From Phaeobacter sp. HF9A (GTDB lineage: Bacteria; Pseudomonadota; Alphaproteobacteria; Rhodobacterales; Rhodobacteraceae), in the NCBI RefSeq assembly GCF_011806385.1, contig NZ_JAATOX010000005.1, positions 1-64,000 on the forward strand: DNA of 64,000 nucleotides, in the 5' to 3' direction. Under the pieces are notes generated by a model. The model was not told where the DNA came from, did not search any database, and worked only from the letters and a program-made list of their open reading frames with translations. Shown in pieces: positions 1,007 to 64,000 of this stretch (positions are counted from its first letter, which is position 1; each line of letters opens with the position of its first letter). Made by a program: the position numbers and the translations under genes.

Positions 1007-1022
1007 GTTGGGTATCCTGTAG

Positions 1023-2141: not shown

Positions 2142-2164
2142 GGCTTCCTCCAGTCTCGATCAGA

Positions 2165-5656: not shown

Positions 5657-5660
5657 GAAT

Positions 5661-19138: not shown

Positions 19139-19200
19139 GAAGGATCCTAGTCATCTGACGGCGCCGGGCCTGCCCTCTTGGGCCAACCCGGGTCTTGAGG

Positions 19201-19617: not shown

Positions 19618-19665
19618 AAGACTGCTTTCTGCTGAAACAATAGTAGATTCTGAGGCGGCTGCGCC

Positions 19666-20805
19666 TTAGCGCAGGACGGGCTCGTCCCAGAGATTGAGCT
19701 TGACGCCGAGGCCGTTCTTCAGGGCGTTCCGGTAAACGACAGTGCCCCAGGCGACGTCTTCGACCGGCATCCCCCCAACCGAGAGCATGATGATCTCGTC
19801 GTCGTTCTGACGCCCCGGCGTCGTGCCCGCGACGATGGCACTCAGGTCTTCCAGCGCGTCGCGTTTCAATTCGCCATCCGTCACCATGTCCATGAACTTC
19901 ATGCCGACAAGCGGGATATGATCATGGGTCGGGTGCGGCACCTCGGATACCCAGGCGTCATAAAGCCCGGTATAGTCCAGCACCTTGCGCACGTCTGGCC
20001 CGGCAACCCCGGCGTCAAAATTGCCAAGCGCCGGCATCGCGAGGAAGGTGCCCGGGCTGATCCAGTCCCGCTCGACGATGGGATATTGCGACGGATCGCC
20101 CGTGGCGCCCGAGCTGCAATAGGCCACCACATCCGACCCCCGCACCAGCTCCTCGGCGGTCTCGACCGCATAGACAGTGGTGATTTGCGGATAGGTCTCC
20201 TTTACCCAGTCGATGAAGAGATCCAGGTTCTTCTGACCCCGTCCCTTGACTTTGACCGTGTCAATATCCGGGCAGGCCGCGATAAAGGCGCTGAGGCTGG
20301 TCTTGCCCATCACGCCCGGCCCGAGAATCCCGGCCACGCGAGAGTCCCTGCGGGCCAGATGACGCGCGCCAACCCCGGGGATGGCGCCGGTGCGATAGGC
20401 CGACAGCAGGTTCGCGGACATCAAGGCCAGCGGCGCGCTGGTTTCGGTGTCGGTGAGGATAAACATCAGGATCGAACGCGGCAGGCCCCGCTCCCGGTTC
20501 GCGATATTCGAGCCGTACCATTTCACACCAGAGGTGCCAAAGCTGCCACCCAGGTAGGCGGGCATCGCCATCAGGCGGCGGTCCGGTGTGTTTTTCGGCA
20601 TTGTCTCATGCGGGGACTCCTCCGGAAACAGGATCAGGGAGCCATGGGAATTGTTGTTCTCTCCAGCCATCCGGTAGTCGCCCACATGCAGCAGCGCGAG
20701 CATCTCTTCCATCGTGTCAACGCAAGCGGGCATATCGGTCACCCCCGCTTTGACCATGTCGGGCTCGGACAGATAGAGAAAGTCGATCTTGGTGTCTTTT
20801 GTCAT
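19666..20805 (-). CDS. Ornithine cyclodeaminase/mu-crystallin family, tyramine oxidase subunit B-like
   Basis: A 379-residue protein with the OCD/mu-crystallin fold: a substrate domain and a Rossmann domain with AGILGPGVMGKTSL around residues 180-193. The N-terminal KIDFLYLSEPDMVKAGV and the PDRRLMAMPAYLGGSF segment recall, from memory, proteins annotated as tyramine oxidase subunit B, a branch longer than classic ornithine cyclodeaminase. It may act with the FAD oxidase two genes downstream or reduce the imine. ATG 20805 follows GAGAG; 38 codons upstream are open but unsupported. It is the first gene of the amine operon and is divergent from an AraC gene. Confidence 0.75.
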   Translation of the reverse strand: MTKDTKIDFLYLSEPDMVKAGVTDMPACVDTMEEMLALLHVGDYRMAGENNNSHGSLILFPEESPHETMPKNTPDRRLMAMPAYLGGSFGTSGVKWYGSNIANRERGLPRSILMFILTDTETSAPLALMSANLLSAYRTGAIPGVGARHLARRDSRVAGILGPGVMGKTSLSAFIAACPDIDTVKVKGRGQKNLDLFIDWVKETYPQITTVYAVETAEELVRGSDVVAYCSSGATGDPSQYPIVERDWISPGTFLAMPALGNFDAGVAGPDVRKVLDYTGLYDAWVSEVPHPTHDHIPLVGMKFMDMVTDGELKRDALEDLSAIVAGTTPGRQNDDEIIMLSVGGMPVEDVAWGTVVYRNALKNGLGVKLNLWDEPVLR

Positions 20806-20945
20806 TGGGCTCTCGTCAGAAAGTTGGGCAAAACATGGACGATCGACATCAGGATGCCTCTCGGTCTCGGTGAATTTTTCGGGATCTGTTGGTGTGTTCA
20901 GGGCCAACCCGTTGTCCAAAACTACGGGTCACAGCTGGATAAAAA

Positions 20946-49280: not shown

Positions 49281-50837
49281 TCATTTGTAGATCGCGTCGG
49301 GGAGCCACGTCGCCAGGTCGGGAACCAGGAAGACGATGGCCAGTGCGACGATCTGCAAGAGGATGAACGGCAAGATCCCCTTGTAGATGTCCATGGTCCT
49401 CACGCTCTCGGGAGCGACGCGGCGGAAGTAGAACAGCGCATAGCCAAAGGGGGGCGTAAGGAAGCTGATTTGCAGGTTCATGCTGATCAGGATCGCGAAC
49501 CAGACGGGATCGACCCCCGCCGCCATCAGCGGCGGACCGGCAATCGGCACCACAATAAAGATGATCTCGACATATTCGATGATGAAGCCGAGCACGAAGA
49601 TGATCGCCATCACCACCAGCACCGCCGTCAGCTCTCCGCCCGGCAGACCGTGCAGGAAGCTCTCGACCATTTCCTCGCCGTGCAGGCCTCGGAACACCAG
49701 CGACAGTATCGTCGCCCCCAGCACGATCAGTGTCAGCATGGCGACCATGCTGGCGGTGTCGACCGCAACGCCCCACACGCCACCGCGGCGCAGTTCTTGC
49801 AGCAGCGCGCAAAGGGTGCCGAGGCACAACACGACAAGCGCCACAATGCCGACGCCCCCCGCCAACGGCGAGGCCTGTGCGCCGCCGGAGAGCTTGACCG
49901 CAACCAGCACAAGGGCGGCGGGCAGAACGGCCATCAGCAAGGACTTGCGCCAGACCGGCAGCCCCTCGCGGTTCAACGCGGTCATCACCAGCGCCCCCAC
50001 CGCGCCAAGCGCCGCGCTCTCCGTCGCCGTGGCCACGCCGCCGAGGATCGAGCCAAGCACGATCACAATCAGTAGCAGCGGCATGAGCAGGGAATAAGAA
50101 ATCTCGCGCAGGTCGGGCCGGGTCCGGTTGCCTGTGGCATCCCGCGTCACGACAGGCGGGCAGCTCGCCGGGGTGCGAAGCGCGGTGAACAGGATATAGA
50201 GAATATAGAGCGTCACCAAGAGCAGGCCCGGAATGAAGGCCCCGGCAAAGAGATCCCCAACAGAGACAGGCTCGACCGCCCATTCGCCGGCTGCCCGCCG
50301 ACCCGCCTGATAGGCCGCCGAGATCTGGTCTGTCAGCAGGATCAGCAGGATGGAAGGCGGAATGATCTGGCCCAGAGACCCCGCCGCGCAGATAACGCCC
50401 GACGCCATGGATTTCGAATATCCCGCCTCCAGCATCGCCGGCATCGCGATCATGCCCAGCATGAAGATCGTCGCCCCGATCACGCCGGTGGAGGCCGCCA
50501 GAAGCGCCCCGACAATCACCACCGCATAGGCCATGCCACCTTCACGGTCACCAAACAGCGCGCCCGCCGTCAGCATCATTCGCTTGGCGATATTCGACTG
50601 CTCCAGAAGCCCCCCCATCAGCACGAAGAGCGGCACCGACAAAAACACATCGTTGGTCAGGATGCCAAAGGCCCGCGACGGGAAGGCGGCGAGAAAGCCC
50701 AGATCGAACACGCCAAGCATCGAGCCGAGGAAGGCGACCATCGTGGGCACCCCGATCAGCACAAAGGCAACCGGCGCGCCGGAGAGGATACCGACCAGAA
50801 GCGCCGCGCCAAGAAGAACCAGAAGCGCGCCGCTCAT
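49281..50837 (-). CDS. TRAP transporter large permease, long form (DctM family)
   Basis: A 518-residue membrane protein, about 90 residues longer than typical DctM. Family motifs IIPPSILLILLTDQ and FLTPPFGYALFYFRRVAP are present. The extra length lies in the middle, around residues 205-345, with a cytoplasmic loop (TPASCPPVVTRDATGNRTRP) and extra hydrophobic segments. Long DctM forms occur with the TakP-like binding proteins. It overlaps dctQ by 4 bp. It is the ion-driven channel for the Tat-exported binding protein. Confidence 0.88.
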   Translation of the reverse strand: MSGALLVLLGAALLVGILSGAPVAFVLIGVPTMVAFLGSMLGVFDLGFLAAFPSRAFGILTNDVFLSVPLFVLMGGLLEQSNIAKRMMLTAGALFGDREGGMAYAVVIVGALLAASTGVIGATIFMLGMIAMPAMLEAGYSKSMASGVICAAGSLGQIIPPSILLILLTDQISAAYQAGRRAAGEWAVEPVSVGDLFAGAFIPGLLLVTLYILYILFTALRTPASCPPVVTRDATGNRTRPDLREISYSLLMPLLLIVIVLGSILGGVATATESAALGAVGALVMTALNREGLPVWRKSLLMAVLPAALVLVAVKLSGGAQASPLAGGVGIVALVVLCLGTLCALLQELRRGGVWGVAVDTASMVAMLTLIVLGATILSLVFRGLHGEEMVESFLHGLPGGELTAVLVVMAIIFVLGFIIEYVEIIFIVVPIAGPPLMAAGVDPVWFAILISMNLQISFLTPPFGYALFYFRRVAPESVRTMDIYKGILPFILLQIVALAIVFLVPDLATWLPDAIYK

Positions 50838-51370
50838 GTCACATCGCTTTCGTCAGTCTGATGGTTTCGGTAGAGTCCGGGCCGGAGCCCCAGGATCAGC
50901 GCGACGATGGCAAGCGTGGCAAAAAGCAGCGCCGTGATCGTCTTGAGGATGAAGAACCCCGGCAGGCCACCCAGAGTCGGAGAGCTTTCCAGAACCCGCC
51001 AGGAGGTCTGCACCATCGGCACAGATTTCCACGCCGCCCAGGCCATTGCCGGAAACAAAAGGCCCAGAAGAGCGATGCGGTCTATCCACCGGCGCAGGAC
51101 GGGCGGGAACCGCTGACTCATCACATCGACGCGCACGCTTTCATTGCGCAGCATCACACCGGTCAGCGGCAAGGAAACGATGAAAAAGAAAAGATAGGTC
51201 AGCAGGTCGGTGGCCCATGGCGCGCCGATCGAAAAGACATAGCGCAGGGCGACGACAATGATCTGCGCCATCAGCAGCGATATCACCGCGACCGCCGCCA
51301 GTCCGCGCAGCGTGCCCGCAAAACTGAATCGCGGGCGGGTCCGGGATTGGTGAGACAGGGAGTCGGTCAT
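50834..51370 (-). CDS. TRAP transporter small permease (DctQ family)
   Basis: A 178-residue protein with four predicted membrane helices, between about residues 20 and 165. The loop segment FSIGAPWATDLLTYLFFFIV and the following VMLRNESVRVDVM are DctQ-like. The stop overlaps the dctM start by 4 bp and its start lies 1 bp after the GGT stop, so the whole GntR-GGT-TRAP operon is tightly packed. Confidence 0.83.
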   Translation of the reverse strand: MTDSLSHQSRTRPRFSFAGTLRGLAAVAVISLLMAQIIVVALRYVFSIGAPWATDLLTYLFFFIVSLPLTGVMLRNESVRVDVMSQRFPPVLRRWIDRIALLGLLFPAMAWAAWKSVPMVQTSWRVLESSPTLGGLPGFFILKTITALLFATLAIVALILGLRPGLYRNHQTDESDVT

Positions 51371-51371
51371 C

Positions 51372-52964
51372 CTACACCCCCAGGGCCAGGCCGTCTTTGC
51401 GCGGATCGCTGCCTCCGGTCAAAAGGCCGGTGGCCACATCGCGGCGGATCGCCTGCGCCCCGCCCATACCGACCGGCGGGCGTTGCACCTTGTGTCCCAT
51501 CTCTTCAAGCTTGGCCGCGACACTGTCGTCAAAGCCCAGTTCCAGATCAAGCACACCCGTGGTGATGTCGAGGAAACTGCGCGGCGCGTCGATGGCAGCC
51601 TGGATGTCCATGCCGTAATCGACAAGGTTAGAGACCAAATGACCGTGGCCCGTCGCCTGGTAAGCCCCGCCCATCACGCCAAAGGGCATCGCATAAACGC
51701 CGGGCTGTTCCAGCAGGCCGGGAATAAGCGTATGCAGCGGGCGCTTGCCGCCTTGCAGCTCGTTCACATGGCTCTCTTCCAGCGTAAAACCGGCGCCGCG
51801 GTTCTGAAGCCCGATCCCGAACCGTTCCGACGCAAAGCCGGAGCCAAAGGGCCAGAAGATCGAATAGATCAGCGACACGCATAGCCCGTCGCTATCCACC
51901 ACGGTGATATAGACCGTATCCTTGTGCAAAGCCTCTGTTCGGGGTTGGATCAGGCTGCCGGCCCGTTTCGGGTCGATTTCCGCCGCCAGCGCATCAATCG
52001 CCGCCTCGGACAGCATCCCGTCAAGGGAAAGCCCCTCGCTCCCCGGATCGCCAACAAAGAGATTGCGCGCACCATAGGCCAGGCGCGTGGCCTCGGCCTC
52101 CAGATGGACCCGCTCTGCCCCGTTGGGGTCCAGCGCTCCGATGTCGAACTTTTCCAGCAGCGCGGCGATCAGAAGGGCGGTCGCCCCCTGCCCGTTCGGT
52201 GGCAATTCGACCAGATCATGCCCGCGATAAGTGCGGCGGATCGGTGTCACCGCGTCGGCGCGGGTCTTGGCAAAATCGTCGGCCGTGTGCAGGCCACCGG
52301 CGGCCCGCAGGCTCGACAGAATGTCCTCCATGATCGGGCCCTCGTAGAAGGCGGCGACACCATCCTTGGCAATCAGCCGGAGCGCCTCGGCCTGGCCGGG
52401 TGCAACAAAGATGTCGCCCTCGCGGTAGGGCTTACCGTCCTTCAGGAAATGCTCTCGCCCCGCGCCCTGAAGCCGGTGGCTGAAATGATCCGCGTCGATG
52501 GCGGTCCGGCGGTGCACCGGCACGCCGGTTTCGGCATAGTGGATCGCCGGGGCCAGCACCGTTGCCAAATCCAGCTTGCCCTGTTCCGCGATCAACCGCC
52601 CGAAGGCATCGACGGCTCCGGGAACGGTGACGGAATGCACCGACCCAAGATCAATGGACTGCATCCCCTGCGCACGCAAGTCGGCCGCGTTCAGCGCCGC
52701 CGGCGCACGGCCCGATCCGTTCAGACCACGGCTTTCGCCGGTCTTGGCGTCATGGATCAACGCAAACACATCACCGCCCAGCCCGGTCATCGCAGGCTCG
52801 CAAAAGCCGAGCACGACCGCCCCGGCAACCGCCGCATCGACAGCATTGCCCCCCTGCGCCAGAATGTCGATCGCCGCACGGGCGCCAAAGGGATGCGACG
52901 TGGCGCACATCGCGCCGGTGGCAAACATCTGTGCGCGGCCGGGGCCGAGATATGCATGGCTCAT
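51372..52964 (-). CDS. ggt: Gamma-glutamyltransferase family protein
   Basis: A 530-residue N-terminal nucleophile hydrolase. The autocleavage threonine is likely T350 in LHKDTVYITVVDSDG, dividing large and small subunits; GNAVDAAVA and the GLGGDVF loop are typical of the family. There is no signal peptide, unlike the periplasmic E. coli enzyme, so it acts in the cytoplasm and may serve a catabolic role on gamma-glutamyl compounds or cyclic amides. The DTVYITVVD motif differs from the common TTH-x-SVVD motif. It overlaps the GntR stop by one base and is first structural gene of a TRAP operon. Confidence 0.88.
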   Translation of the reverse strand: MSHAYLGPGRAQMFATGAMCATSHPFGARAAIDILAQGGNAVDAAVAGAVVLGFCEPAMTGLGGDVFALIHDAKTGESRGLNGSGRAPAALNAADLRAQGMQSIDLGSVHSVTVPGAVDAFGRLIAEQGKLDLATVLAPAIHYAETGVPVHRRTAIDADHFSHRLQGAGREHFLKDGKPYREGDIFVAPGQAEALRLIAKDGVAAFYEGPIMEDILSSLRAAGGLHTADDFAKTRADAVTPIRRTYRGHDLVELPPNGQGATALLIAALLEKFDIGALDPNGAERVHLEAEATRLAYGARNLFVGDPGSEGLSLDGMLSEAAIDALAAEIDPKRAGSLIQPRTEALHKDTVYITVVDSDGLCVSLIYSIFWPFGSGFASERFGIGLQNRGAGFTLEESHVNELQGGKRPLHTLIPGLLEQPGVYAMPFGVMGGAYQATGHGHLVSNLVDYGMDIQAAIDAPRSFLDITTGVLDLELGFDDSVAAKLEEMGHKVQRPPVGMGGAQAIRRDVATGLLTGGSDPRKDGLALGV

Positions 52965-53641
52965 CAGGTTCTGCCTTTTTCCTTGGGCGCATCCGGGCGC
53001 GCCGCCGTTTCATCAAAGAATTTCTGGAGCGAGATCAGCGCCTGGGCGATATGTTCGCGCATCAAAGCCGCGGCGCGGTCGCTATCGCCCGCCAGCACGG
53101 CCTCGGCGATGTCGGCGTGCTGACAATGCGGACGCCCCAGATCGGCGTCGTAGCTTTCCATGGTGAACAACGCAGCGCTGTAGGGGGTGATCTTCAACCG
53201 GGTCTCTTCGGCGACGGTCTTGAGCATCCAGTTGCGCGCGCCGTCATGCAGCAAGCCGTGAAACTCGAAATCCATCTCCAGCGCAGCCGCGCGATCCTTG
53301 CGCGCGGTGATGTCCTCGGACGCGGCGATCAGGGCACGCAGGCGCAGACGTTCGGCTTCGTTGAAGCGGACGGCGGCACGGGCAGCACAGAGCGCCTCGA
53401 TCTCTCCCATGGCCTCAAACGCCTCGCTCAACTCGGTGCGGTCAAAGCTGCGCACAACCGCGGACCGCCGAGGCCGGATTTCGACCAGGCCAGAGGCACC
53501 AAGCTGTCGGATCGCCTCGCGGATCGGCGTGCGTGACACGCCAAACCGTTCCGCGAGCGAATGTTCATCAAGGCGATCTCCGGGTTTCAATGTCCCGAGA
53601 AGAACGAGGTCGGCGAGTTTTTGTCGAAGCGTATGCGGCAT
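52964..53641 (-). CDS. GntR family transcriptional regulator (FadR/FCD subfamily)
   Basis: A 225-residue regulator. The winged helix-turn-helix is at residues 8-70 (LDEHSLAERFGVSRTPIREA), and the all-helical FCD domain spans about 80-210 with metal-binding-type residues (EMDFEFHGLLH, HADIAEAVLAGD). FCD members usually repress an operon for a carboxylic acid and release DNA on binding it. It is first in the GGT-TRAP operon and so probably autoregulated through the repeat at 53694-53709. Confidence 0.87.
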   Translation of the reverse strand: MPHTLRQKLADLVLLGTLKPGDRLDEHSLAERFGVSRTPIREAIRQLGASGLVEIRPRRSAVVRSFDRTELSEAFEAMGEIEALCAARAAVRFNEAERLRLRALIAASEDITARKDRAAALEMDFEFHGLLHDGARNWMLKTVAEETRLKITPYSAALFTMESYDADLGRPHCQHADIAEAVLAGDSDRAAALMREHIAQALISLQKFFDETAARPDAPKEKGRT

Positions 53642-54623: not shown

Positions 54624-54968
54624 ATGACCCAAACCACGGTTTATTCCCACCCGCTCACCCTTTTTATTCTGGTTCGGGCGCTGCCCGCCTGGCTGGCGTT
54701 GTCGCGCGCCGAACGCCAGGACATCGCGGCCAGCGCCTTGCCGCGCGACGACACGCAGGTTCGTCTCTTCGACTGCGAAGCCTTCTCGGCCATGTGCTCG
54801 GATATCTGGATGTTGTCGGCACCCGGCGTCGGGGCGCTGAATACGGCGATGGAGCGTCTGCGCGACACGCCGCTCTTTGCGCAGCCCTATTTCGACTTTG
54901 TTGCGATCCTGCCGGTGATCGAAAATGGCTGGAGAGATTTCGAAGCCGCAGAGGCAGGGCAGGCCTGA
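54624..54968 (+). CDS. Darcynin-like small protein
   Basis: A 114-residue protein resembling the darcynin family (FILVRALPAWLALSRAERQD, then LRDTPLFAQPYFDFVAIL), a ferredoxin-like alpha/beta fold of unknown function. It starts with ATG 54624; the frame is open 13 codons further. Small proteins of this kind occur in aromatic catabolic clusters, and the iac-like operon lies 6 kb away, so it could be a pathway component comparable to the small IacB protein; I could not verify that. Its divergent partner is a TetR regulator. Confidence 0.65.
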   Translation: MTQTTVYSHPLTLFILVRALPAWLALSRAERQDIAASALPRDDTQVRLFDCEAFSAMCSDIWMLSAPGVGALNTAMERLRDTPLFAQPYFDFVAILPVIENGWRDFEAAEAGQA

Positions 54969-54995
54969 CATCGCCAAAGCCCGGCATGCGCCGCC

Positions 54996-56090
54996 TCAGG
55001 ACAGCTTACCAAGCCTCGCGTCCAGGAGGCGTGCCCGATAGGCCCGTGGCGTTTCTCCGGTGACGGATCGAAACGCGCGGGTAAAGCTCGCGGTTTCGCC
55101 ATAGCCGCTGCGCTCTGCGATCTCCAGCACGCTGAGCTTGGTTTCCAGCAAAAGCCGCGTCGCCCGGTCGATGCGGTTGCGCCGGACCAGATCGCGAAAG
55201 GAGCTGCCCTCGGCGCGCAGACGCCGCCCGAGGGTGGACGCGCCAACCCCCAGTTGAGCCGCAACACGCACCAAACTGGGCTCCTGCCCGTCTGCAAGCC
55301 CCGCAAGGGTCTGACGGACCTCCTCGGTAAAGGTCTGGATCGTGTGGTCAGGCCGGTCCAGAAGCTGGATGTAATGCTGCATCAAGGCAACCAGATTGGG
55401 ATCTGCCCCCGGCGCACGGCGATGCACATCCTCGGGGCGGAACCAAATCGCGTTGCGATCCTGATCAAAGAACACCGGGCAGCCCAGCAAGGCCTCTTGC
55501 CGCTCCGGCCGCGCAGGTCCGGGATGTTCGAACCAGACTTCCGCCGGGGCGTAGCCGGGGCCAAGCAGCAGCCGGATCAGGTGATTGACATAGCCGAGCG
55601 AAAACTCGACGTCGTGGCGGCGGGGTGACATATCGTCGTCGGTGATCCTGTAGCGCACATGGGGCGCGGGATCGCTGCGGACCTCAAAGAGGGTTGCGTC
55701 CTGAATTGTGAAGACACTTGACGCCAACGCGCGTACCGCCTGGATCAGATCCGGCGAGGCGACAAAGATATACCCCGCCGGCCCAACCAGTTCCGGGCCC
55801 ATGCCCGAGGACAGCTCCAGGCCAAAACAGTCCCGTCCCAGCCTTTCCGCCACCCGATCAAACAGCCGCAAATAGGCCGCAAAGGGCAAGGTTCCATGAG
55901 GATCGCGCACATCGGCCCGCCGCAGGTTTTCGCTGGCCAGAAGGCTGTGAACTTCCGGGTCCGGCAGCTGCGCAGAGTTCAGGATCGCATTCAGGATCTT
56001 TGCCTGGATGCGCGGAATTCTCTGCCGCTCGGTTGTTTCGGTCCGCATGTGCTCAAAACTATCAATTTTTTGACGAAACAGATCAAGCAT
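54996..56090 (-). CDS. AraC family transcriptional regulator
   Basis: A 364-residue regulator of the same type as the one at 20983-22062. The N-terminal arabinose-binding-like domain spans about 45-235 (LPFAAYLRLFDRVAERLG, then RHDVEFSLGYVNHLIRLLLG). The DNA-binding part lies at about 265-355 (LGVGASTLGRRLRAEGSSFR and IAERSGYGETASFTRAF). ATG 56090; an in-frame ATG at 56048 is possible. It is divergent by 77 bp from the GS-like gene and likely activates the GS-GATase-P450 operon. Confidence 0.87.
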   Translation of the reverse strand: MLDLFRQKIDSFEHMRTETTERQRIPRIQAKILNAILNSAQLPDPEVHSLLASENLRRADVRDPHGTLPFAAYLRLFDRVAERLGRDCFGLELSSGMGPELVGPAGYIFVASPDLIQAVRALASSVFTIQDATLFEVRSDPAPHVRYRITDDDMSPRRHDVEFSLGYVNHLIRLLLGPGYAPAEVWFEHPGPARPERQEALLGCPVFFDQDRNAIWFRPEDVHRRAPGADPNLVALMQHYIQLLDRPDHTIQTFTEEVRQTLAGLADGQEPSLVRVAAQLGVGASTLGRRLRAEGSSFRDLVRRNRIDRATRLLLETKLSVLEIAERSGYGETASFTRAFRSVTGETPRAYRARLLDARLGKLS

Positions 56091-56167
56091 GGCGCAACCT
56101 ATTCCCTACCGTCAAGGGTACGCAACGAGCCCGGACAACCGGGCCGGACACAACAGGGAACTAAATT

Positions 56168-57496
56168 ATGAGTGAAACGCACAGCCGTTTCGCGACCGTC
56201 GCCATTGTTGACACGAACGGATTGCTTCGGGGTCAAAAGGTGCGGGGCGCGGATATACCGGGACTTCTGGAGCACGGACCGGGCATGTCGCCCGTGCAGC
56301 TGGCCCTGGATCCCACCGACGAAATCCTGGACATGCCGGGCATCACCGACGACAGCGCCGATTTCCATGACACCGATCTGGCCGTCGATCCCTCCAGCCT
56401 GCGGCATATCCCGTTCGAGCGCGACGAGGACAATCCGCTCTACCTCGCAGAGTTCACCGGTGCGGCGGCGGAGTTCTGTCCCCGCTCCCTGCTGCGCCGG
56501 GTGCTGGCGCGGGCCCGGGACATGGGGCTGACGCCCAAAGTGGGCATCGAGCTGGAGTTCACCCTGTTTGACGAAACCGCGCGCTCGCTCGCGGCCAAGG
56601 GCTATGACGGGCTTGATACGGCCACCGCGCACCCCAGCCATGACCTGATTATCTATCAGGCCGCACAGGCGGATCTCTATGCCGAGGTTGCCGACATGTG
56701 CGGCCCGCTCGGCATCGGGCTGGGCAAGATGCACGAAGAAATCGGCGGCGGTTTCATGGAGGCCTGCATTGCCGCCACCTCGGCGCTGGAAGCGGCAGAT
56801 CAGGCGGCGCTGTTCAAGAACTTCATCCGGGTGCTGGCGATGCAGCGCGATCAAACCGTCTGTTTCATGCCGCGCTGGAGCGAAACTGCCGACAGCCAGT
56901 CCTCGCATATCCACCTGTCGCTGAGCGGCGCCGATGAAACGCCGCTGTTCTGGGATGCCCGCGCCCCGGCCCGGATGAGCGAGAGCTTTGGTCATTTCAT
57001 CGGCGGGATGCAGCACTATCTGCCGGCGATGATGCTGATTTTCGCCCCCACGGTGAACAGCTGGCGTCGCTTCGCCGAGGGGACATTTGCACCGCCGGCA
57101 TTTTCGTGGGGGGTCGAAAACCGCACCACCGCGTTTCGCGTTGTCGGCCACGGGCCACGGTCGATGCGGGTTGAAAACCGCCTGCCGTGTTCGGATGCGA
57201 ACCCCTATCTGGCGCTGGCGGCGACGCTGGCGGCCGGGTTGGCCGGGATCACCGAACAGATCGCGCCTTCTGATCCGACCAGGGGCAATGGCTACGTCCC
57301 CGGCTCCGCCATCGGCCCCGCGCTGCCCGCCAGCATGGAGGAGGCGATCGCGGCCTTGCGCGGCTCGGGTTTTGCCGCAGAATGGCTTTCGCCCCGTTTT
57401 GTCGAGACTTTCACCGCCACCCGTGACCACCAGCTTCGGCAGTTCGACGGCAAGACGCTGATCGACGAACGCCGTCGCTTCTTTGAACTGGGGTGA
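56168..57496 (+). CDS. Glutamine synthetase family gamma-glutamyl-amine ligase
   Basis: A 442-residue GS-like ligase. The metal-binding E128 and E130 (KVGIELEFTLFD), SSHIHLSLSG and NRLPCSDANPYLALAATLAA are intact. It joins glutamate to an amine using ATP, as in gamma-glutamylanilide synthase (TdnQ/AtdA1) or isopropylamide synthase (IpuC), rather than making glutamine. The class I amidotransferase gene 2 bp downstream and the ring-hydroxylating dioxygenase operon nearby repeat the layout of aniline clusters. AGGGAA precedes ATG 56168. The amine substrate is unknown. Confidence 0.85.
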   Translation: MSETHSRFATVAIVDTNGLLRGQKVRGADIPGLLEHGPGMSPVQLALDPTDEILDMPGITDDSADFHDTDLAVDPSSLRHIPFERDEDNPLYLAEFTGAAAEFCPRSLLRRVLARARDMGLTPKVGIELEFTLFDETARSLAAKGYDGLDTATAHPSHDLIIYQAAQADLYAEVADMCGPLGIGLGKMHEEIGGGFMEACIAATSALEAADQAALFKNFIRVLAMQRDQTVCFMPRWSETADSQSSHIHLSLSGADETPLFWDARAPARMSESFGHFIGGMQHYLPAMMLIFAPTVNSWRRFAEGTFAPPAFSWGVENRTTAFRVVGHGPRSMRVENRLPCSDANPYLALAATLAAGLAGITEQIAPSDPTRGNGYVPGSAIGPALPASMEEAIAALRGSGFAAEWLSPRFVETFTATRDHQLRQFDGKTLIDERRRFFELG

Positions 57497-57498
57497 GC

Positions 57499-58215
57499 AT
57501 GAAAATCGGTATTCTTGAATGCGGCAGCAACCGTCCCGAATGGGCGCAATACGGCCGCTTTGCGGATTGGTTCCCGCCGCTTCTGTCGCAGGCTGGCCTG
57601 GATTTCGAAACCCAGGCCTGGAACGTATCGGAAGGCGAATTCCCCTCCGGCCCGGAGCTCTGCGACGCCTGGCTGCTGACCGGTAGCCCCGCCAGCGCGG
57701 TGGACGATGCGCCCTGGCAACTGGCGCTGAGCGAGTTCCTGCGCCCGGTGATCGGCCAAACGCCGGTGATCGGCATTTGCTATGGTCACCAGCACCTGCA
57801 CCGGATGCTGGGCGGCACCGTCGAGGAATGCCCCGATTGGGGCGTCGGCGTGCAGCACTATGCGCTGAAAGACGCGCCGGACTGGCTGGAGGATCAAGCC
57901 GACGCGGCGGGCTTTGACCTGGTGGCGCTGCATCACGATCAGGTCACACGCCCGGCGCCGGATACACGCGTCTTCGCCGGATCGGCGTTTTGCCCCTATG
58001 GCGTGACCCAAATCGGCCCCTGCACGCTGACCTTTCAACCGCATCCCGAAATGGACCCGGCCTTTGCCGCCGAGGTCTATGATTTTGAACGCCACCGCAT
58101 TGGCGAGTCCGAAACCGACGCGGCCTTGCGGACATTGGACCACCCCCGCGACACCAGCCGCGCCGCGCGCTGGATCATGGGCTTCCTTGCGCATCAATTG
58201 GAGGACAGGACATGA
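57499..58215 (+). CDS. Class I glutamine amidotransferase-like hydrolase
   Basis: A 238-residue GATase domain with the full triad: C94 in GICYGHQHLHRMLGG, H182 and E184 in TFQPHPEM. In aniline clusters the same type (TdnT/AtdA2) hydrolyses the gamma-glutamyl amide, controlling the toxic intermediate. ATG 57499 (MKIGILECGSN) follows GGGGTGAGC; a GTG two codons earlier is possible. It lies 2 bp after the GS-like gene and overlaps the P450 gene by 4 bp, so the three are one unit. Confidence 0.85.
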   Translation: MKIGILECGSNRPEWAQYGRFADWFPPLLSQAGLDFETQAWNVSEGEFPSGPELCDAWLLTGSPASAVDDAPWQLALSEFLRPVIGQTPVIGICYGHQHLHRMLGGTVEECPDWGVGVQHYALKDAPDWLEDQADAAGFDLVALHHDQVTRPAPDTRVFAGSAFCPYGVTQIGPCTLTFQPHPEMDPAFAAEVYDFERHRIGESETDAALRTLDHPRDTSRAARWIMGFLAHQLEDRT

Positions 58216-59474
58216 CCACAACCTTGAATGCCCCCGAAACACGGATCGACCTGTCCGACGCCGGTCTCTGGCAGGACGGCCCGCCGCGCGCCGAATTTGC
58301 CCGCCTCCGGGCCGAGACGCCGGTGGCCTGGAACCCCCGCCACGACGGTCATCGCGGGTTCTGGGCGGTGACGCGCTATGACGACATCGTAGAAGTCTCC
58401 AAGGACACCGAGACGTTTTCCTCCCGCAACGGAGTGATTTCGCTGGACGATTTTGACGACGCACAGAACGACAAACGCCGCACCCTCCTGGAAATGGACC
58501 CGCCGCAACATGGCAAGATGCGGATGCTGACACTGCCCGGGTTTACCCGGCGCGGCGTCGGCGGCCTGGAGGAAGATGTGCGCAGCCGTGTGGCCGCGCT
58601 CCTTGACCAGATCACCGATGCCGGCAGCTTCGAGGCGGTGGAGACGCTGACCAAACAGGTGCCGATCATCACGCTCTGTTCCCTGCTCGGCATCCCGACC
58701 GAGCGCACGGCGGATCTGATCCGTTGGTCGGATATGCTGATCGGCTCGGATGACCCGGATTTCGTCGATCCGATCGTCGAGCAATACTCCGAGCAAGAGC
58801 GCCGCATGATGCCCTTTGGCCACCCCGCCGCGCTTCAGGCCTTTGAGATGGGTCGCGCGCTGGCGGCCGACCGGCGTGCCAATCCGCGCAGCGATGTGAT
58901 CACCATGCTGGTTCAGGCCCAGGTTGATGGCCGCCCGCTGACCGAGGATGAATTTCTCAATTATTTCCTCATGCTGGTCGTTGCAGGCAATGAAACCACG
59001 CGCCACACCATGAGCCACGGGCTGCGCGCGCTGGCGGATCATCCTGCCGAATGGGATCGTTTCCGGGCGGGCGGCATCAAGAGCCAGACCGCCACGGATG
59101 AGATCCTCCGCTGGGCCAGCCCGGTGCATTTCGTGCGTCGCATCGCCACCCGAGAGACCCGGCTGGGCGAGGTCACCATTGCCAAGGGCGACAAGGTGGC
59201 GATGTATTTCACCTCCGGCAACCGGGACGAGGCATATTTCGAGGCGCCGGACCGCTTTGACATCGGACGCGAAAAGAACCCGCATATGGCCTTTGGCAAG
59301 GGGGGGCCGCATTTCTGCCTTGGCAATTATGTCGCCCAGCTTCAGGTGCGGGTGTTGATCGAGGAACTGGCCAAGCGCGTCGCCCGGATCGAAACGACAG
59401 GCCGGGTCGACCTGCTGCGCTCAAACCACATCCACGGCGTCAAAGCGCTCGATCTGGCGTTCCACTCCGCATGA
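58212..59474 (+). CDS. Cytochrome P450
   Basis: A 420-residue soluble bacterial P450. The heme-ligand cysteine is C369 in FGKGGPHFCLGNYV, the I-helix oxygen motif is VAGNETTRH (about 257-265), and the ExxR motif is EILR at 297-300. It hydroxylates or dealkylates an organic substrate with electrons from a ferredoxin. The class resembles CYP107/CYP116-like terpene or aromatic hydroxylases; the subfamily cannot be fixed by eye. No ferredoxin gene is next to it, though the IacF-like reductase nearby has a ferredoxin domain. ATG 58212 overlaps the GATase stop by 4 bp. Confidence 0.9.
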   Translation: MTTTLNAPETRIDLSDAGLWQDGPPRAEFARLRAETPVAWNPRHDGHRGFWAVTRYDDIVEVSKDTETFSSRNGVISLDDFDDAQNDKRRTLLEMDPPQHGKMRMLTLPGFTRRGVGGLEEDVRSRVAALLDQITDAGSFEAVETLTKQVPIITLCSLLGIPTERTADLIRWSDMLIGSDDPDFVDPIVEQYSEQERRMMPFGHPAALQAFEMGRALAADRRANPRSDVITMLVQAQVDGRPLTEDEFLNYFLMLVVAGNETTRHTMSHGLRALADHPAEWDRFRAGGIKSQTATDEILRWASPVHFVRRIATRETRLGEVTIAKGDKVAMYFTSGNRDEAYFEAPDRFDIGREKNPHMAFGKGGPHFCLGNYVAQLQVRVLIEELAKRVARIETTGRVDLLRSNHIHGVKALDLAFHSA

Positions 59475-59483
59475 ATTGCTTGC

Positions 59484-59518
59484 CGGGAGGCTGGCCAGCC
59501 CTCTGCGCTGGCCTCCCG
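59484..59518 (+). terminator. Imperfect hairpin after the P450 gene
   Basis: CGGGAGG (59484-59490) and CCTCCCG (59512-59518) enclose a second stem CCAGC/GCTGG. No T run. It may weaken readthrough into the MFS gene. Confidence 0.4.
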
Positions 59519-59600
59519 CACAGCGCGTGACCAAGCGGGGGCTGATCGGGTCATGCCACTTGGGATTGTATGCGCTGGCGGCAGGGGGGATAGTGGCCGT

Positions 59601-60893
59601 ATGACCGCTGAAACAGAGTTCTCCTTCGCTGCGCTTTCCGATTCGGCGCGACGGCATATCCGGGTGTTTCAGGCCCATCAGTTTCTTGATCGCTTTGCGA
59701 TGGGATTGACGGTGTCTGTTGTGGCCCTGGCATTGAGCGATCGAGGCATGGATCTCTTTCAAATCTCGCTGCTCTTTGGGGTCTACTCGCTCACCACCAT
59801 GGTGATGGAGCTGCCGTTTGGCGGTCTGGCAGACAGTATCGGGCGCAAGCCTGTCTTTCTGACCGCGGTCATCGCCAGTTTGGTGTCGCTTTCGATTTTT
59901 CTCTCGACCCGCGATTTTTATGTGCTGGCGCTGTCCTTTGCATGTATCGGTTTTGGCCGTGCGCTTCGGTCGGGCACGCTTGATGCGTGGTTTGTCGAAA
60001 CATTCAGGGCCAGCGCGCCAAATGTGGATGTCCAGCCCGCGCTGGCAAAAGCGCAATGGGCCAATGCTGTCGGCTTGGCCCTCGGGGCCGTCCTCGGCGG
60101 ACTTCTACCCGATATGCTGGGCCAGGTCGCAACACAGCTGGGTTTCAGCATCTATGACGTCTCCTACGCGGCGAGCTTTGCCGTAATGTTAGTCGTTTTT
60201 GCCTTCACCACATTCGCCATTGTCGAGCAGCCGCGCCCCATGAACCTGGCCGCGCTCAAGCTAGGCTTTGTGATCGTGCCGACGGTAATAAAGGATGCAG
60301 GTCTTCTGGCCCTCAAACATCCCGCATTGTCGATGCTTCTGGCTGCGCTGGCCTTCTTCTTGATGGCGAGCAACCCGGTCGAGGTGATCTGGCCGACATA
60401 TGCAAAACCGATGTTGGATGAAGGCTATGCCAATACCGTAATCGGTGTTGTCACTGCGTCGTATTTCTTTGCGATCGCGCTTGGCGCCTCTGTGTCATCG
60501 CACATCAGCCGGTTCTTCAAGCGGCGACACGCGCGGACGCTGGCGGCGAGCTATGCGGGCTTGGCCGGCGTTCAGATCGCATTGGCTTTGCAAGGCAATA
60601 TCATCGGCTTTTTGGCGGTTTTCATCCTGTATTCCGTGATCCTCGGCGTCAGCGAAACACCGGCGAGCAGCATTCTGCATCGCTGCGTCGAAGACCGTCA
60701 GCGGTCGACCATGCTATCGCTCAGATCGCTGATACAACAATTGGGGGCCGCATTTGGTCTGACTTTGGCCGGCGCGATCGCCGATCTCTATTCCACGGCT
60801 GTCGCATGGATCCTGGGAGCAGGGTTTCTTGTCATCGCCGCGATCCTGGCCTTGATGCTGGCCAAACGACTGAACACAGAACCGGATCGCTGA
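59601..60893 (+). CDS. MFS transporter
   Basis: A 430-residue protein with 12 predicted membrane helices and the loop-2/3 motif GGLADSIGRKPVFLTA typical of the major facilitator superfamily. The general layout suits a drug/solute exporter or an importer of a small organic compound. ATG 59601 is chosen (MTAETEFSF); an upstream extension of 16 codons is unlikely. It lies 126 bp after the P450 gene on the same strand and converges with the dioxygenase operon, so it could move the pathway substrate or a toxic intermediate. Confidence 0.87.
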   Translation: MTAETEFSFAALSDSARRHIRVFQAHQFLDRFAMGLTVSVVALALSDRGMDLFQISLLFGVYSLTTMVMELPFGGLADSIGRKPVFLTAVIASLVSLSIFLSTRDFYVLALSFACIGFGRALRSGTLDAWFVETFRASAPNVDVQPALAKAQWANAVGLALGAVLGGLLPDMLGQVATQLGFSIYDVSYAASFAVMLVVFAFTTFAIVEQPRPMNLAALKLGFVIVPTVIKDAGLLALKHPALSMLLAALAFFLMASNPVEVIWPTYAKPMLDEGYANTVIGVVTASYFFAIALGASVSSHISRFFKRRHARTLAASYAGLAGVQIALALQGNIIGFLAVFILYSVILGVSETPASSILHRCVEDRQRSTMLSLRSLIQQLGAAFGLTLAGAIADLYSTAVAWILGAGFLVIAAILALMLAKRLNTEPDR

Positions 60894-60953
60894 GAGTTCC
60901 ACGGCGCAGCCTCGCCGCGCGACCGGATGCAAAGCGGTCGCTGCGGGCTTGGG

Positions 60954-61454
60954 CTATGAAGCGGAGCTGTGCAGGTGATGAAAATCGCGGCTGAAATAAA
61001 CAAGCCCCGCCCCCGGGCGCGCTGACAGATGCACGCCCTGCACTTCGCAGAACATGACGGAATGGGTGCCCTGCTCCAGCACGCTGCCGATCCGGCAATC
61101 CAGCGCGACATTACTGTCGGTCAGCACCGGCGACCCGGTGGCCAGCGTGGTCCATGTACCCTGGGCAAAGCGGTCCACGCCTTCGACATAGCGCGCAAAG
61201 GTGTTGCAAAGATCCTGATGCTGGCTGGCCAATACATTCACGCAAAGCGCCCCATTGCGCAGGAACTTGTCGTGCACAAAGCTGCCCCGGTTGATGCAGA
61301 CCAGGACCGTGGGCGGGCTGTCGGTCACCGAACAGACCGCCGAGGCAACCAGCCCGTGCTTGCCCGCTGGCCCGTCGGTGGTCAGCAGGTTCACCGCCGC
61401 GCCCATGCGGCTCATGCCTTCGCGAAAGGCGATCTGGTTCTCGGTCAGCTCCAT
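60954..61454 (-). CDS. iacG: Flavin reductase, IacG-like
   Basis: A 166-residue flavin reductase-like FMN-binding protein (FREGMSRMGAAVNLLTTDG, then GLVASAVCSVTDSPPTVLVC). It reduces flavin with NAD(P)H. The length and domain match IacG and small components of two-component monooxygenases such as HpaC. GAGGGGAC precedes ATG 61454. It is the last gene of an operon ordered dioxygenase alpha, beta, SDR, reductase, flavin reductase, matching iacCDEFG; the symbol rests on that order and on the family. The reductase gene lies 11 bp upstream. Confidence 0.72.
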   Translation of the reverse strand: MELTENQIAFREGMSRMGAAVNLLTTDGPAGKHGLVASAVCSVTDSPPTVLVCINRGSFVHDKFLRNGALCVNVLASQHQDLCNTFARYVEGVDRFAQGTWTTLATGSPVLTDSNVALDCRIGSVLEQGTHSVMFCEVQGVHLSARPGAGLVYFSRDFHHLHSSAS

Positions 61455-61465
61455 GTCGTCCCCTC

Positions 61466-62431
61466 TCATATATCGAGCACAAGCGTGCCGCGCCCGCGCG
61501 AACAGCAGACGCACATCTGGTCACCATCCTCGCGTTCCTCATCCGTCAGGAACTGGTCGCGGTGGTCGATATCGCCGCTGATAACATCGGTGACGCAGGT
61601 GCCGCAAACACCCTCTTCGCATTTGACCTCGACCTTGATGCCATGCTCGGCGAGCTTCTTGGCTATGGTGTCATCCGGGCCGATGGTCAGCGTCACGCCG
61701 GAAGCGCGCGCCTCGACCTCGAAACTGTCGCCGCTCAGCTCCACATCCGCCGAAAAATACTCGCGGTGAACATTCGCCGTGGCGTGCCCTGCCGCTTCGG
61801 CGGTGTTGATCACCCAATCCATGAAACCTTGCGGGCCGCAGACATACAGGTGGGTATCCGGCGACGGCGCGGGCAGGTCACGCGCCAGGTCGAGCTTTTG
61901 CGCCGCGTCTTCGTCGTCGTGGTGAAACACCACCCGGTCGGCAAAGGGCGCGGCCTTGAGCTCCTCGTAGAATGCTGTCACGTCGCGGGAGCGCGTGCAA
62001 AAATGCAACGTGAAATCCTTGCCGATCGCATGCAGCCGTCGCGCCATGGCGATCATCGGCGTGACGCCAATGCCACCGCCGAGCAGCACGGTCTTGGTCG
62101 CGCTTTCCTCCAGCGGGAAGTGATTGCGTGGCCCTTCGACCTTGAGCGCCGCACCCGGTTGCGCCACCCGATGCACCTCCAGAGACCCCCCGCGCGAGGC
62201 GGGATCCTTCAGCACGCCGATCTCGTAATAGCCGGTCTCGGCAGGGTCGGAACACAGCGAATACTGCCGCCAGAGATCGACCTCCGGCAGGTAGAGATCA
62301 AGATGCGCCCCGGCGGTGACCGGCGGCAGATTGTCGCCCACCAGCCGGATGCGCGCGATATCGCCCCTGTCGTCGATCCGTTCGGAAACGGTGAGGGTCA
62401 AGGTCTGATTGTCTGTCATATCAAGGCTCAT
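61466..62431 (-). CDS. iacF: Ferredoxin-NADH reductase of the PDR/VanB type, IacF-like
   Basis: A 321-residue iron-sulfur flavoprotein. The FMN/FAD-binding barrel spans about 10-110 (RQYSLCSDPAE), and the NADH domain about 115-225 (LLGGGIGVTPMIAMA, LYVCGPQGFMDWV). The C-terminal 2Fe-2S plant-type ferredoxin has C-x4-C-x2-C in KCEEGVCGTC, with the fourth ligand in CVCCSRGRG. It passes NADH electrons to the Rieske dioxygenase encoded upstream in the same operon. ATGA overlap with the SDR gene. In gene order it corresponds to IacF. Confidence 0.8.
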   Translation of the reverse strand: MSLDMTDNQTLTLTVSERIDDRGDIARIRLVGDNLPPVTAGAHLDLYLPEVDLWRQYSLCSDPAETGYYEIGVLKDPASRGGSLEVHRVAQPGAALKVEGPRNHFPLEESATKTVLLGGGIGVTPMIAMARRLHAIGKDFTLHFCTRSRDVTAFYEELKAAPFADRVVFHHDDEDAAQKLDLARDLPAPSPDTHLYVCGPQGFMDWVINTAEAAGHATANVHREYFSADVELSGDSFEVEARASGVTLTIGPDDTIAKKLAEHGIKVEVKCEEGVCGTCVTDVISGDIDHRDQFLTDEEREDGDQMCVCCSRGRGTLVLDI

Positions 62432-63186
62432 CTCATGTATATCCCGCCGTTCACGTCCCAGCAGGCACCGTTGACGAAGGCCGCGCGCGGCGCCGCGAGC
62501 ATCGCGACAAGTTCGGCAACGAACTTCGGATCGCCCAAATCGCCCACGGGGATGTTTTTCTTGGCGGCGTCGATATTGTCACCCAGCACCTCGCGCACCA
62601 TGGGCGTATCCATCGGGCCCGGCGCGATCGCGTTGCAGGTCACGCCAAAGGGCGCAAGGTCACGGGCAAAGATCTTGGTCAATGTCAGGATCGCGCCCTT
62701 TGAAGCCGCGTAATGCGCCCCCGTGGCAGTGCCCCCATTCTGCCCCGCCAGCGAGGCCATGTTGACGATCCGCCCATAGCCGCGATCCTTCATGTGGCGG
62801 CCAAAGATCTGGCAACCGGCAAAGGTGCCGCCCGCGTTGGTGGCCATCACCTCGTTGAAAAAGGCGGGGTCGATCTCCAGCACCGGCTGCACGGCGGTGC
62901 GGGCGGCATTGTTCACCAGCACCTCAACCGAGCCATAGAAGGTGATGCACTGGTCCAGCACGGTCTGAAAGTCCTCCGGCTTGGTCACGTCCAGCGTCGC
63001 GGTGGTGGCGGTTTCGCCGGAAAGATCCAGCTCTGACGCCAGCGCCTTGGCCGGTTCCGGGTCCATATCGGTGATGACGACGCGGAACCCTTCGCGGTGC
63101 AGGGCGCGGGCGACCTCGGCCCCGAAGCCGCGCGCACCGCCGGTGATGACGGCGGTCTGGATCTGATCAGGCAAGGGGGCCACCAT
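62428..63186 (-). CDS. iacE: Short-chain dehydrogenase/reductase, IacE-like
   Basis: A 252-residue SDR. The cofactor motif is TGGARGFGAE (residues 15-24), with NNAA in the middle and the catalytic YxxxK in HYAASKGA, and a serine in MASLAGQ before it. Asp-40 in VVITDMDP suggests NAD(H). It overlaps both neighbours by 1-4 bp. In the iac cluster the SDR IacE acts on oxindole-type intermediates; here the assignment rests on gene order. Classic fatty-acid or sugar SDRs are the alternative. Confidence 0.75.
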   Translation of the reverse strand: MVAPLPDQIQTAVITGGARGFGAEVARALHREGFRVVITDMDPEPAKALASELDLSGETATTATLDVTKPEDFQTVLDQCITFYGSVEVLVNNAARTAVQPVLEIDPAFFNEVMATNAGGTFAGCQIFGRHMKDRGYGRIVNMASLAGQNGGTATGAHYAASKGAILTLTKIFARDLAPFGVTCNAIAPGPMDTPMVREVLGDNIDAAKKNIPVGDLGDPKFVAELVAMLAAPRAAFVNGACWDVNGGIYMR

Positions 63187-63680
63187 CAGAACAGATAGCT
63201 GAACGAATTCAGCATCCCGTCGGAGTTCAGCAGGCGGATCACCTTCTGATGCAGTTTGAAGCCCTCGTCCGTGGCCTTGAGCACATAGCGGACATTCCCG
63301 GCCCAGCTGCGCTGGCGGCCGAACTTGTCCTCGATCAGGTGTTCGGCGGCGCGGACGGTGATCAGATCGCCCTCGGCTTTGTCGATCACGATCCGGCTGA
63401 CGGTGCGCACGGTCACCGCCGGCGGCGCCGAGGAAATAGAGAACCCCGCCTGAAACCGCCCGATCCGGTCGCGGCGCATCTTGGCATTGTCATAGCAGAG
63501 GTTCAGTTGATTGGCGTAATCCTCGCCCTCGCCGATCGGCATGATGTACATGCCATCCTCGGTCCAGAGGTCCAGCCAGTCGTCATAGGCGCAGGCGTCG
63601 AGCAGGTCGGCCTCCTGCCACAGGAACCGGGTCACATCGGCGAGCAAGGCGCCAGCGTCGATCTTGGACATCTCGGTCAT
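63186..63680 (-). CDS. iacD: Ring-hydroxylating dioxygenase, beta (small) subunit, IacD-like
   Basis: A 164-residue protein of the SnoaL/NTF2-like fold used by aromatic-ring dioxygenase small subunits (EADLLDACAYDDWLDLW, TEDGMYIMPIGEGEDYANQ, then RQRSWAGNVRYVL). It shapes the hexamer and has no cofactor. ATG 63680 (MTEMSKIDAG) overlaps the alpha-subunit stop in an ATGA; an upstream start at 63698 is possible. The beta subunits of benzoate, biphenyl and aniline dioxygenases are distant relatives, so the specific substrate rests on context. Confidence 0.78.
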   Translation of the reverse strand: MTEMSKIDAGALLADVTRFLWQEADLLDACAYDDWLDLWTEDGMYIMPIGEGEDYANQLNLCYDNAKMRRDRIGRFQAGFSISSAPPAVTVRTVSRIVIDKAEGDLITVRAAEHLIEDKFGRQRSWAGNVRYVLKATDEGFKLHQKVIRLLNSDGMLNSFSYLF

Positions 63681-64000
63681 GCCATCATCCTCTTCCACAT
63701 CTTGTAGGCAGCGCGCATGCCCGTCTCGGCGCTGATATGGCCGCGCGGACCAGCGGTGCCGGGTTCCTCATCGACCAAGCCACGGTTCACCAGGATCGGC
63801 AGTTGCTCGCCGCCCTTGGTGCCGCGCTGCACGCGCTCCCAGACCTCGGCGTCATCGGGGCTGCCAAAGCCCATCGGCCCCTGGAAATGCTCATGCAGAC
63901 GCATCCGCATCTGGTTCGCCGCCTGCGGGCCGCCCTCCATACCAAGCGCCATATGGCGAATGTCGGTCTGCTCCACGCTGACAGGGGTCAGCACGCGGAA
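63677..64000 (-). CDS. iacC: Ring-hydroxylating dioxygenase, alpha (large) subunit, C-terminal part
   Basis: The last 107 codons of a Rieske dioxygenase large subunit; the gene continues past the right edge. The visible part resembles the C-terminal catalytic-domain end (HFQGPMGFGSPDDAEVWERV, then AETGMRAAYKMWKRMM). The Rieske center and the Fe(II) ligands are outside the window. Family and position follow from the beta subunit starting within its stop codon. In iac clusters this is IacC, which oxygenates the indole-acetate derivative; an aniline or benzoate-type dioxygenase remains possible. Confidence 0.72.
   Translation of the reverse strand, partial: FRVLTPVSVEQTDIRHMALGMEGGPQAANQMRMRLHEHFQGPMGFGSPDDAEVWERVQRGTKGGEQLPILVNRGLVDEEPGTAGPRGHISAETGMRAAYKMWKRMMA

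Follow-up and report, generated by a model that had tools for sequence, protein, structure and literature searches.

At the right-hand end of a 64,000-base stretch of the draft genome of Phaeobacter sp. HF9A (4.27 Mb in 262 contigs, 94.8% complete), two operons run towards each other, the end of a transporter gene lying 60 bp from the end of iacG. The stretch, called the window here, covers bases 1-64,000 of contig NZ_JAATOX010000005.1, whose total length is 79,564 bases. One operon runs rightward and encodes a glutamine synthetase (GS)-like ligase, a hydrolase of the glutamine amidotransferase (GATase) fold and a cytochrome P450; the other runs leftward, is cut by the window edge and is almost certainly part of an iac cluster for the breakdown of indole-3-acetate (IAA), beside which lies a set of genes for putative hydroxyquinol cleavage. 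We lean towards the view that the locus holds, side by side, a variant iac cluster with a hydroxyquinol ending and a separate amine-capping P450 module. The genes concerned are listed in contig numbering, which is also that of the window up to base 64,000; percentages are identities, and Sagittula stands for Sagittula stellata E-37.

54996..56090, minus strand: AraC/QhpR-like regulator, divergent from the ligase operon (PF12625 and HTH_18)
56168..57496, plus strand: GS-like ligase, predicted gamma-glutamyl-amine synthetase (PF00120, GS catalytic domain, 281 bits)
57493..58215, plus strand: GATase-fold hydrolase, predicted gamma-glutamyl-amide hydrolase (PF00117, 27.5 bits against a cut-off of 22.8)
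58212..59474, plus strand: cytochrome P450 (PF00067)
59553..60893, plus strand: transporter of the major facilitator superfamily (MFS; PF07690, 108.6 bits), starting 78 bp after the P450 gene
60954..61514, minus strand: iacG, flavin reductase (PF01613; 85% to Sagittula, 48% to the Klebsiella plasmid iac)
61466..62431, minus strand: iacF, ferredoxin-type 2Fe-2S/NAD reductase (PF00111 and PF00175)
62428..63186, minus strand: iacE, short-chain dehydrogenase/reductase (PF13561; 97% to Sagittula)
63186..63698, minus strand: iacD, dioxygenase beta subunit (PF00866, 76.5 bits; 88% to Sagittula)
63677..64951, minus strand: iacC, dioxygenase alpha subunit, cut by the window edge at 64000
64955-65314, minus strand: iacB-like gene
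65337-66476, minus strand: iacA-like monooxygenase
66473-67675, minus strand: iacH, amidase
67725-68360, plus strand: iacI-like, NTF2/SnoaL-like gene, divergent here
68431-69960, minus strand: aldehyde dehydrogenase (ALDH)
69968-73135, minus strand: TctA/B/C
73146-73994, minus strand: predicted hydroxyquinol dioxygenase
73991-75097, minus strand: predicted maleylacetate reductase
75081-76448, minus strand: class III aminotransferase
76590-77630, plus strand: AraC
77691-78161, plus strand: MarR/IacR-type regulator

The initial annotation had compared the leftward operon to iac from the genes inside the window, which are open, adjacent and matched by the profiles of the expected families. The extension to the right that it proposed reveals iacB, iacA, the amidase gene iacH and an iacI-like gene beyond the window edge, so that the order H-A-B-C-D-E-F-G is complete and is joined by an IacR-type MarR regulator. 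Gaps from iacH to iacG range from -49 to +22 bp, depending on the start codons chosen. The same order is found on an Acinetobacter baumannii plasmid and on a Klebsiella plasmid whose small gene is annotated as IacB, and on both plasmids an additional NTF2-like gene stands ahead of iacC; in tblastn searches the correspondence holds gene by gene, including the NTF2/SnoaL-like gene (33-36%). Identity to these plasmids is 44-47% for IacF (88% to Sagittula) and 47-50% for IacE. The dioxygenase has its Rieske and mononuclear-iron motifs, and its alpha subunit, whose family the same note had proposed to check, is IacC-like (62% and 65% to the A. baumannii and Klebsiella plasmid proteins) and not aniline-type (35% to the alpha subunit of pTB30). 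Anthranilate, benzoate and phenylpropionate dioxygenases were considered for this subunit and rejected, the matching equivalog models scoring far below cut-off. For the MarR protein the best PDB matches are 7kua, in first place, 7l19 and 7l1i. According to passages of PMC9613470, 7KUA is Pseudomonas putida IacR and served as search model for the A. baumannii and E. soli regulators, which 7l19 and 7l1i presumably represent.

The iac clusters known from P. putida 1290, A. baumannii and Caballeronia glathei share with that of HF9A the IacC-type alpha subunit and the IacR-type MarR regulator. The HF9A cluster differs from them in its divergent iacI-like gene and in the hydroxyquinol dioxygenase and maleylacetate reductase attached to it, whereas the described clusters have catABC nearby (as stated in parts of PMC7225977). 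The iac locus of Novosphingobium EMRT-2 also has catABC nearby, unlike that of HF9A. The attached genes form a closely spaced leftward set from 68431 to 76448 (aminotransferase, maleylacetate reductase, dioxygenase, TctC, TctB, TctA and ALDH, with gaps of -17 to +54 bp). By sequence comparison, the dioxygenase is nearer to hydroxyquinol-cleaving than to catechol-cleaving enzymes: its best matches are 6-chlorohydroxyquinol dioxygenase (3e-132) and hydroxyquinol dioxygenase (4e-81), and catechol 1,2-dioxygenases follow at 3e-39 or weaker. The maleylacetate reductase is named from annotated genes of Sagittula (86% over 297 amino acids) and Gemmobacter (59%); in NCBIfam it matches iron-ADH models only, far below their cut-off.

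We asked how often iac and such a dioxygenase occur together in a set of 22 iac loci, made up of that of HF9A, all ten other loci with IacC hits in a search of the family and 11 plasmid loci chosen from hits, and thus not a random sample; a class-wide IacC search, positive in two of 385 genomes, was too sparse for a linkage count. A dioxygenase 68-86% identical lies 5-13 kb from iacC in seven of the 22, namely in HF9A, Sagittula, Martelella, Gemmobacter, Shinella and two Azospirillum loci. The same ALDH is present in all seven and maleylacetate reductase in six, Martelella having none within the stretch read. All seven fall into one clade of 12 (support 93/89) in a tree of 22 iac alpha subunits with no outside families. 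The chance of this is 0.005 if the loci are taken as independent, a figure that overstates the case because they are related. Five loci outside the clade have no such dioxygenase nearby by whole-genome search, two of them having one elsewhere, and none was seen in the stretches read (about 10-16 kb per side) in Thioclava, R. rhizoryzae, Novosphingobium EMRT-2, Klebsiella and A. baumannii. For comparison, a search of 385 genomes of the class found a dioxygenase of this kind in six (E<=1e-105). The iac trees omit Thioclava 'Guangxiensis' (L099), which is similar to L098, and include L089, a locus that ends near iacA and whose IacA row fills 31% of the columns.

Three iac loci without the hydroxyquinol branch were observed to adjoin genes for ketopantoate-reductase-like and class II aldolase-like proteins, the same neighbours that are reported for Marinomonas in part of PMC11373566. 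By annotation or our own reading, these pairs lie at 17163-18961 in L082, 17225-19030 in L085 and 22921-24703 in L098.

As known from other bacteria, the Iac route begins with oxidation of the indole ring by IacA (with IacG) and IacE. The dioxindole-acetate so formed is converted by IacC, IacD and IacF, together with other Iac proteins, to a vicinal diol ring; the two hydroxyls of the catechol formed from IAA sit at the former indole positions C3a and C7a. A substrate already hydroxylated at C5, para to C7a, would by the same reactions give 1,2,4-trihydroxybenzene, that is, hydroxyquinol. The association of iac with a hydroxyquinol dioxygenase, a maleylacetate reductase and side-chain genes thus suggests a ring-hydroxylated indole-acetate as substrate, most simply 5-hydroxyindole-3-acetate from serotonin-type compounds, an assignment that we make tentatively; IAA is perhaps a second substrate. 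In sections of PMC7225977, C. glathei IacA oxidises many 3-substituted indoles and not tryptamine, which would fit a prior deamination, as by the aminotransferase and ALDH genes found here; the term '5-hydroxy' is absent from the main text of that paper.

The most serious competitor is an ordinary iac cluster that converts IAA to catechol, the hydroxyquinol and maleylacetate genes serving another aromatic compound and merely sharing the island. We regard this as a credible account, if one that stops short of being probable. It accords with the catechol that Iac yields from IAA elsewhere (according to parts of PMC9613470 and PMC7225977). Against it stand the recurrence of the linkage in seven loci from several genera, with the ALDH in every one, and the separation of the iac-linked dioxygenases from nine non-iac ones, which form a clade of their own (99/98); two changes suffice for the iac-linked rows of the dioxygenase tree, compared with 6.2 in shuffles, and none of 500 shuffles was as low. 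Four of the five non-iac loci read, Aureimonas being the exception, have a gene with the annotation flavin-type monooxygenase or oxidoreductase no further than about 4 kb from the dioxygenase, whereas the three iac-linked loci whose records carry annotation show no such gene between dioxygenase and iac (the records of Shinella and Azospirillum are unannotated). The lack of such a gene there suggests that the third hydroxyl most simply comes with the substrate. Finally, no match to a catechol 1,2-dioxygenase (catA-like) was found in the HF9A genome, an absence that is not firm in a draft of this contiguity and completeness, and of such ring-cleaving enzymes the contig of the cluster carries only the hydroxyquinol-type dioxygenase. 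The other PF00775 genes of the genome are one adjacent pair on contig C244, read as protocatechuate dioxygenase. A gene resembling catechol 2,3-dioxygenases falls short of the cut-off (206 against 320) and adjoins an ALDH gene that we read as HpaE-like. A nearby catA, as described for the studied strains, is hardly essential to membership in iac.

Several observations, besides the provisional nature of the catA result, weigh against a hydroxylated substrate. The other five of the 12 IacC clade members, all from genomes of the family, have no dioxygenase of at least 60% identity anywhere in the genome. A single clade of iac-linked dioxygenases is neither shown nor rejected (p-AU 0.44). Another intradiol dioxygenase occurs about 13-53 kb from iac in Sagittula, Shinella and Azospirillum 4B, adjoining a muconate cycloisomerase in Sagittula, so that conversion of IAA to catechol may also run in these three; in the tree the extra Azospirillum enzyme groups with CatA of Novosphingobium EMRT-2, and those of Sagittula and Shinella fall into a third group. 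The identity of the substrate is itself ambiguous, as 6-hydroxyindole-acetate would give the same triol.

The rightward operon is compact, with 4-bp overlaps between the ligase and GATase genes and between the GATase and P450 genes. Where Escherichia coli GS has D50 and E327, which we take to be ammonia-site residues, the ligase carries S and F, and the metal, ATP and glutamate residues that we checked are retained. PuuA has P and Y at the two positions, and the pTB30 ligase T and L. The loss of the ammonia-site residues together with retention of the others indicates that the ligase probably glutamylates an amine; joining glutamate to an amine rather than to ammonia is thus its most likely predicted reaction. 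The hydrolase has the nucleophile motif GICYGHQ and the HPE (HxE) motif of class I GATases. For the P450, the closest solved relatives are CYP125-type, CYP125 entries heading its PDB matches; an I-helix motif was found, and the haem-cysteine pattern search gave no match, but GKGGPHFCLG is legible in the translation. It is 90% identical to the Sagittula copy and 61-65% to copies in Vibrio and Novosphingobium. The AraC/QhpR-like gene likely encodes the regulator of the operon, a 68% identical gene occupying the same place in Sagittula and 46-47% identical ones occurring in two Novosphingobium loci; the MFS gene is not at the corresponding place in Sagittula.

In a tree of 33 GS proteins, which has long branches among its outgroup rows and, like the identity comparison, omits L011 (partial ligase), the five P450-linked ligases of HF9A, Sagittula, Vibrio and two Novosphingobium loci form a clade (98/95). 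This clade is nested in a group of 19 members; the loci of 13 of them also encode an acyl-CoA-dehydrogenase-type monooxygenase and an alpha/beta hydrolase. A conserved operon with a ligase 55-58% identical to that of HF9A was noted in this context (L072-L079, L043, L069 and L070). It comprises genes for an M29-annotated protein (matched by neither Pfam at 1e-5 nor NCBIfam at 1e-30), an acyl-CoA-dehydrogenase-type monooxygenase, an alpha/beta hydrolase with an SRPBCC part, a TetR regulator and the GS-like ligase, with a flavin reductase in ten of the 11 operons, and apparently represents an undescribed amine or aromatic pathway.

The ligase, GATase and P450 genes also occur away from iac. A contig scan returned 33 loci, five of these with at least 63% identity. 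No iac accompanies the trio in the 8-10 kb read per side in Vibrio sp. MEBiC08052 and Novosphingobium SG707, nor in the stretch of about 10-12 kb per side read for Novosphingobium humi, and in two further Novosphingobium plasmid records the three genes lie together by their coordinates. In Vibrio the trio is followed by a ferredoxin reductase gene and a small ferredoxin-like gene. The HF9A operon has no gene for ferredoxin or ferredoxin reductase, which counts against the proposed module. Among 295 genomes of the family, the ligase (E<=1e-100) and IacC (E<=1e-140) were each found in 11, and both together only in HF9A; a GS hit was present in two of the 22 iac loci read (HF9A and Sagittula) and seen in none of the other 20.

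The relative arrangement of the two units is the same in Sagittula, which argues that it is not due to chance. The order there is AraC, GS, GATase, P450, TRAP transporter genes, iac and a SnoaL-like gene, continuing with ALDH, TctABC, dioxygenase, maleylacetate reductase, aminotransferase, AraC and MarR. The left flanks differ: Sagittula has genes there whose annotation points to the breakdown of tryptophan and kynurenine and to CoA-linked aromatic degradation, and HF9A has a darcynin-like gene, a gamma-glutamyltranspeptidase gene and two regulators. The small darcynin-family gene (PF17074; 54585-54968 of the window, plus strand) stands beside the AraC gene. The gamma-glutamyltranspeptidase (PF01019; window region 49281-53641, minus strand), 3 kb from the ligase operon, is flanked by TRAP-like transporter genes and a GntR-like regulator.

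The initial annotation had envisaged one combined pathway, in which the ligase masks an aniline-like intermediate as a gamma-glutamyl amide before ring cleavage, presumably by the Iac dioxygenase. The units are adjacent in two organisms, and an aniline-like Iac intermediate as such may exist, since the steps from dioxindole-acetate to catechol are described as unresolved in part of PMC7225977. We nevertheless consider a joint pathway very improbable: Iac works elsewhere without such a ligase, as the 20 iac loci lacking a GS hit indicate, Vibrio and Novosphingobium have the module with no iac beside it, and the ligase, the GATase and the alpha subunit are all outside the aniline families. Because the operons converge, they are not co-transcribed as one unit, and the transcriptional link that the annotation had looked for does not hold in that sense, although the two could be co-induced. 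A promoter scan gave one site compared with 2.3 expected by chance, and terminator-like sites numbered 11 compared with 7.5 expected, figures that are uninformative on this point. What survives of the masking idea is that capping of an amine by the ligase is plausible. With good confidence, we regard the GS-GATase-P450 set as a separate amine-capping module.

The same annotation had called the ligase and GATase hallmarks of aniline clusters, and the analogy is one of function and not of family. In the aniline and chloroaniline clusters of pTB30 and pLME1 (presumably those that go by the names tdn, atd and dca), a GS-like ligase gene is likewise followed by a GATase-fold gene and accompanied by an oxygenase; the oxygenase of the HF9A module is a P450, not a Rieske dioxygenase within the same operon. 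Membership in the aniline family was rejected, with identities to the pTB30 proteins of 27% for the ligase and 31% (146 amino acids) for the GATase. The E. coli Puu pathway (PuuA, PuuD) shares the logic of gamma-glutamyl capping, and both ammonia-site residues are replaced in PuuA too; it has no P450, unlike the HF9A module, whose ligase is 27% identical to PuuA and whose GATase gives no BLAST hit to PuuD at 1e-3. Isopropylamine is likewise capped, oxidised and uncapped during degradation, a route that the module resembles in its logic. Its gamma-glutamyl intermediates are named in a passage of PMC11335346. A further set is found in Ruegeria sp. TM1040 (L080, 9154-12680), where the same three kinds of protein are encoded adjacently, with class III aminotransferase, TctABC and ALDH genes nearby as in HF9A. 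This set has diverged (ligase 26%, GATase 27%, P450 40%) and differs in order and orientation, and there is no iac hit at the locus.

The amine acted on by the module could in principle be an arylethylamine such as tryptamine or serotonin, in which case the module would feed or compete with the iac route; we think this unlikely. The Vibrio trio is preceded by a 'tyramine oxidase subunit B'-RidA-FAD oxidoreductase set, which also occurs in the window of HF9A (17849-20808, minus strand; 60-71% identical to the Vibrio set of L008) and next to the iac genes of Gemmobacter, Shinella and Azospirillum B510. Capping would be unnecessary, though, where genes for deamination and aldehyde oxidation stand beside iac, and the amine-oxidase set also lies near other clusters, as in Aminobacter. 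Elsewhere in the window (89-7241) are genes for an FAA hydrolase, a gentisate/5-aminosalicylate dioxygenase-like cupin, a carbon-nitrogen hydrolase and an indolepyruvate oxidoreductase-like pair. A cupin, an FAA hydrolase and a carbon-nitrogen hydrolase are also found together near a related ligase in Aminobacter, by annotation only. At the end of the HF9A contig lies a nitrilase.

The substrates and reactions that we propose for HF9A are read from gene content and order, protein families, key residues, recurrence and linkage. The aminotransferase, ALDH and TctABC would serve side-chain processing and uptake, Iac would turn 5-hydroxyindole-3-acetate into hydroxyquinol, and the dioxygenase and maleylacetate reductase would cleave the ring and lead through maleylacetate to 3-oxoadipate. 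Next to this, the ligase would make the gamma-glutamyl amide of an amine different from the iac substrate, the P450 would hydroxylate the capped molecule, and the GATase-fold hydrolase would take the glutamate off again. Extended to the alphaproteobacterial iac clade, the proposal becomes a full pathway for serotonin-type 5-hydroxyindoles (from the amine or alcohol through the aldehyde, 5-hydroxyindole-3-acetate, hydroxyquinol and maleylacetate to 3-oxoadipate), with P450-based gamma-glutamyl amine activation beside it in two organisms, a speculative generalisation that we would not call probable. In the open-licence literature we found no description of iac combined with a hydroxyquinol route, nor of a ligase-GATase-P450 amine module; bacterial serotonin catabolism may appear in subscription papers, and the 'hydroxyquinol' of the indole paper PMC11434297 is, in the part concerned, 2-hydroxyquinoline.

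The iac pathway has so far been taken to end in catechol, and an iac clade equipped for hydroxyquinol cleavage allows a direct test of substrate and triol. If the proposal is true for 5-hydroxyindole-acetate, these bacteria would be able to mineralise serotonin and the chief waste product derived from it. The neighbouring module would bring a P450 into the group of oxygenases that have gamma-glutamyl-capped amines as substrates.

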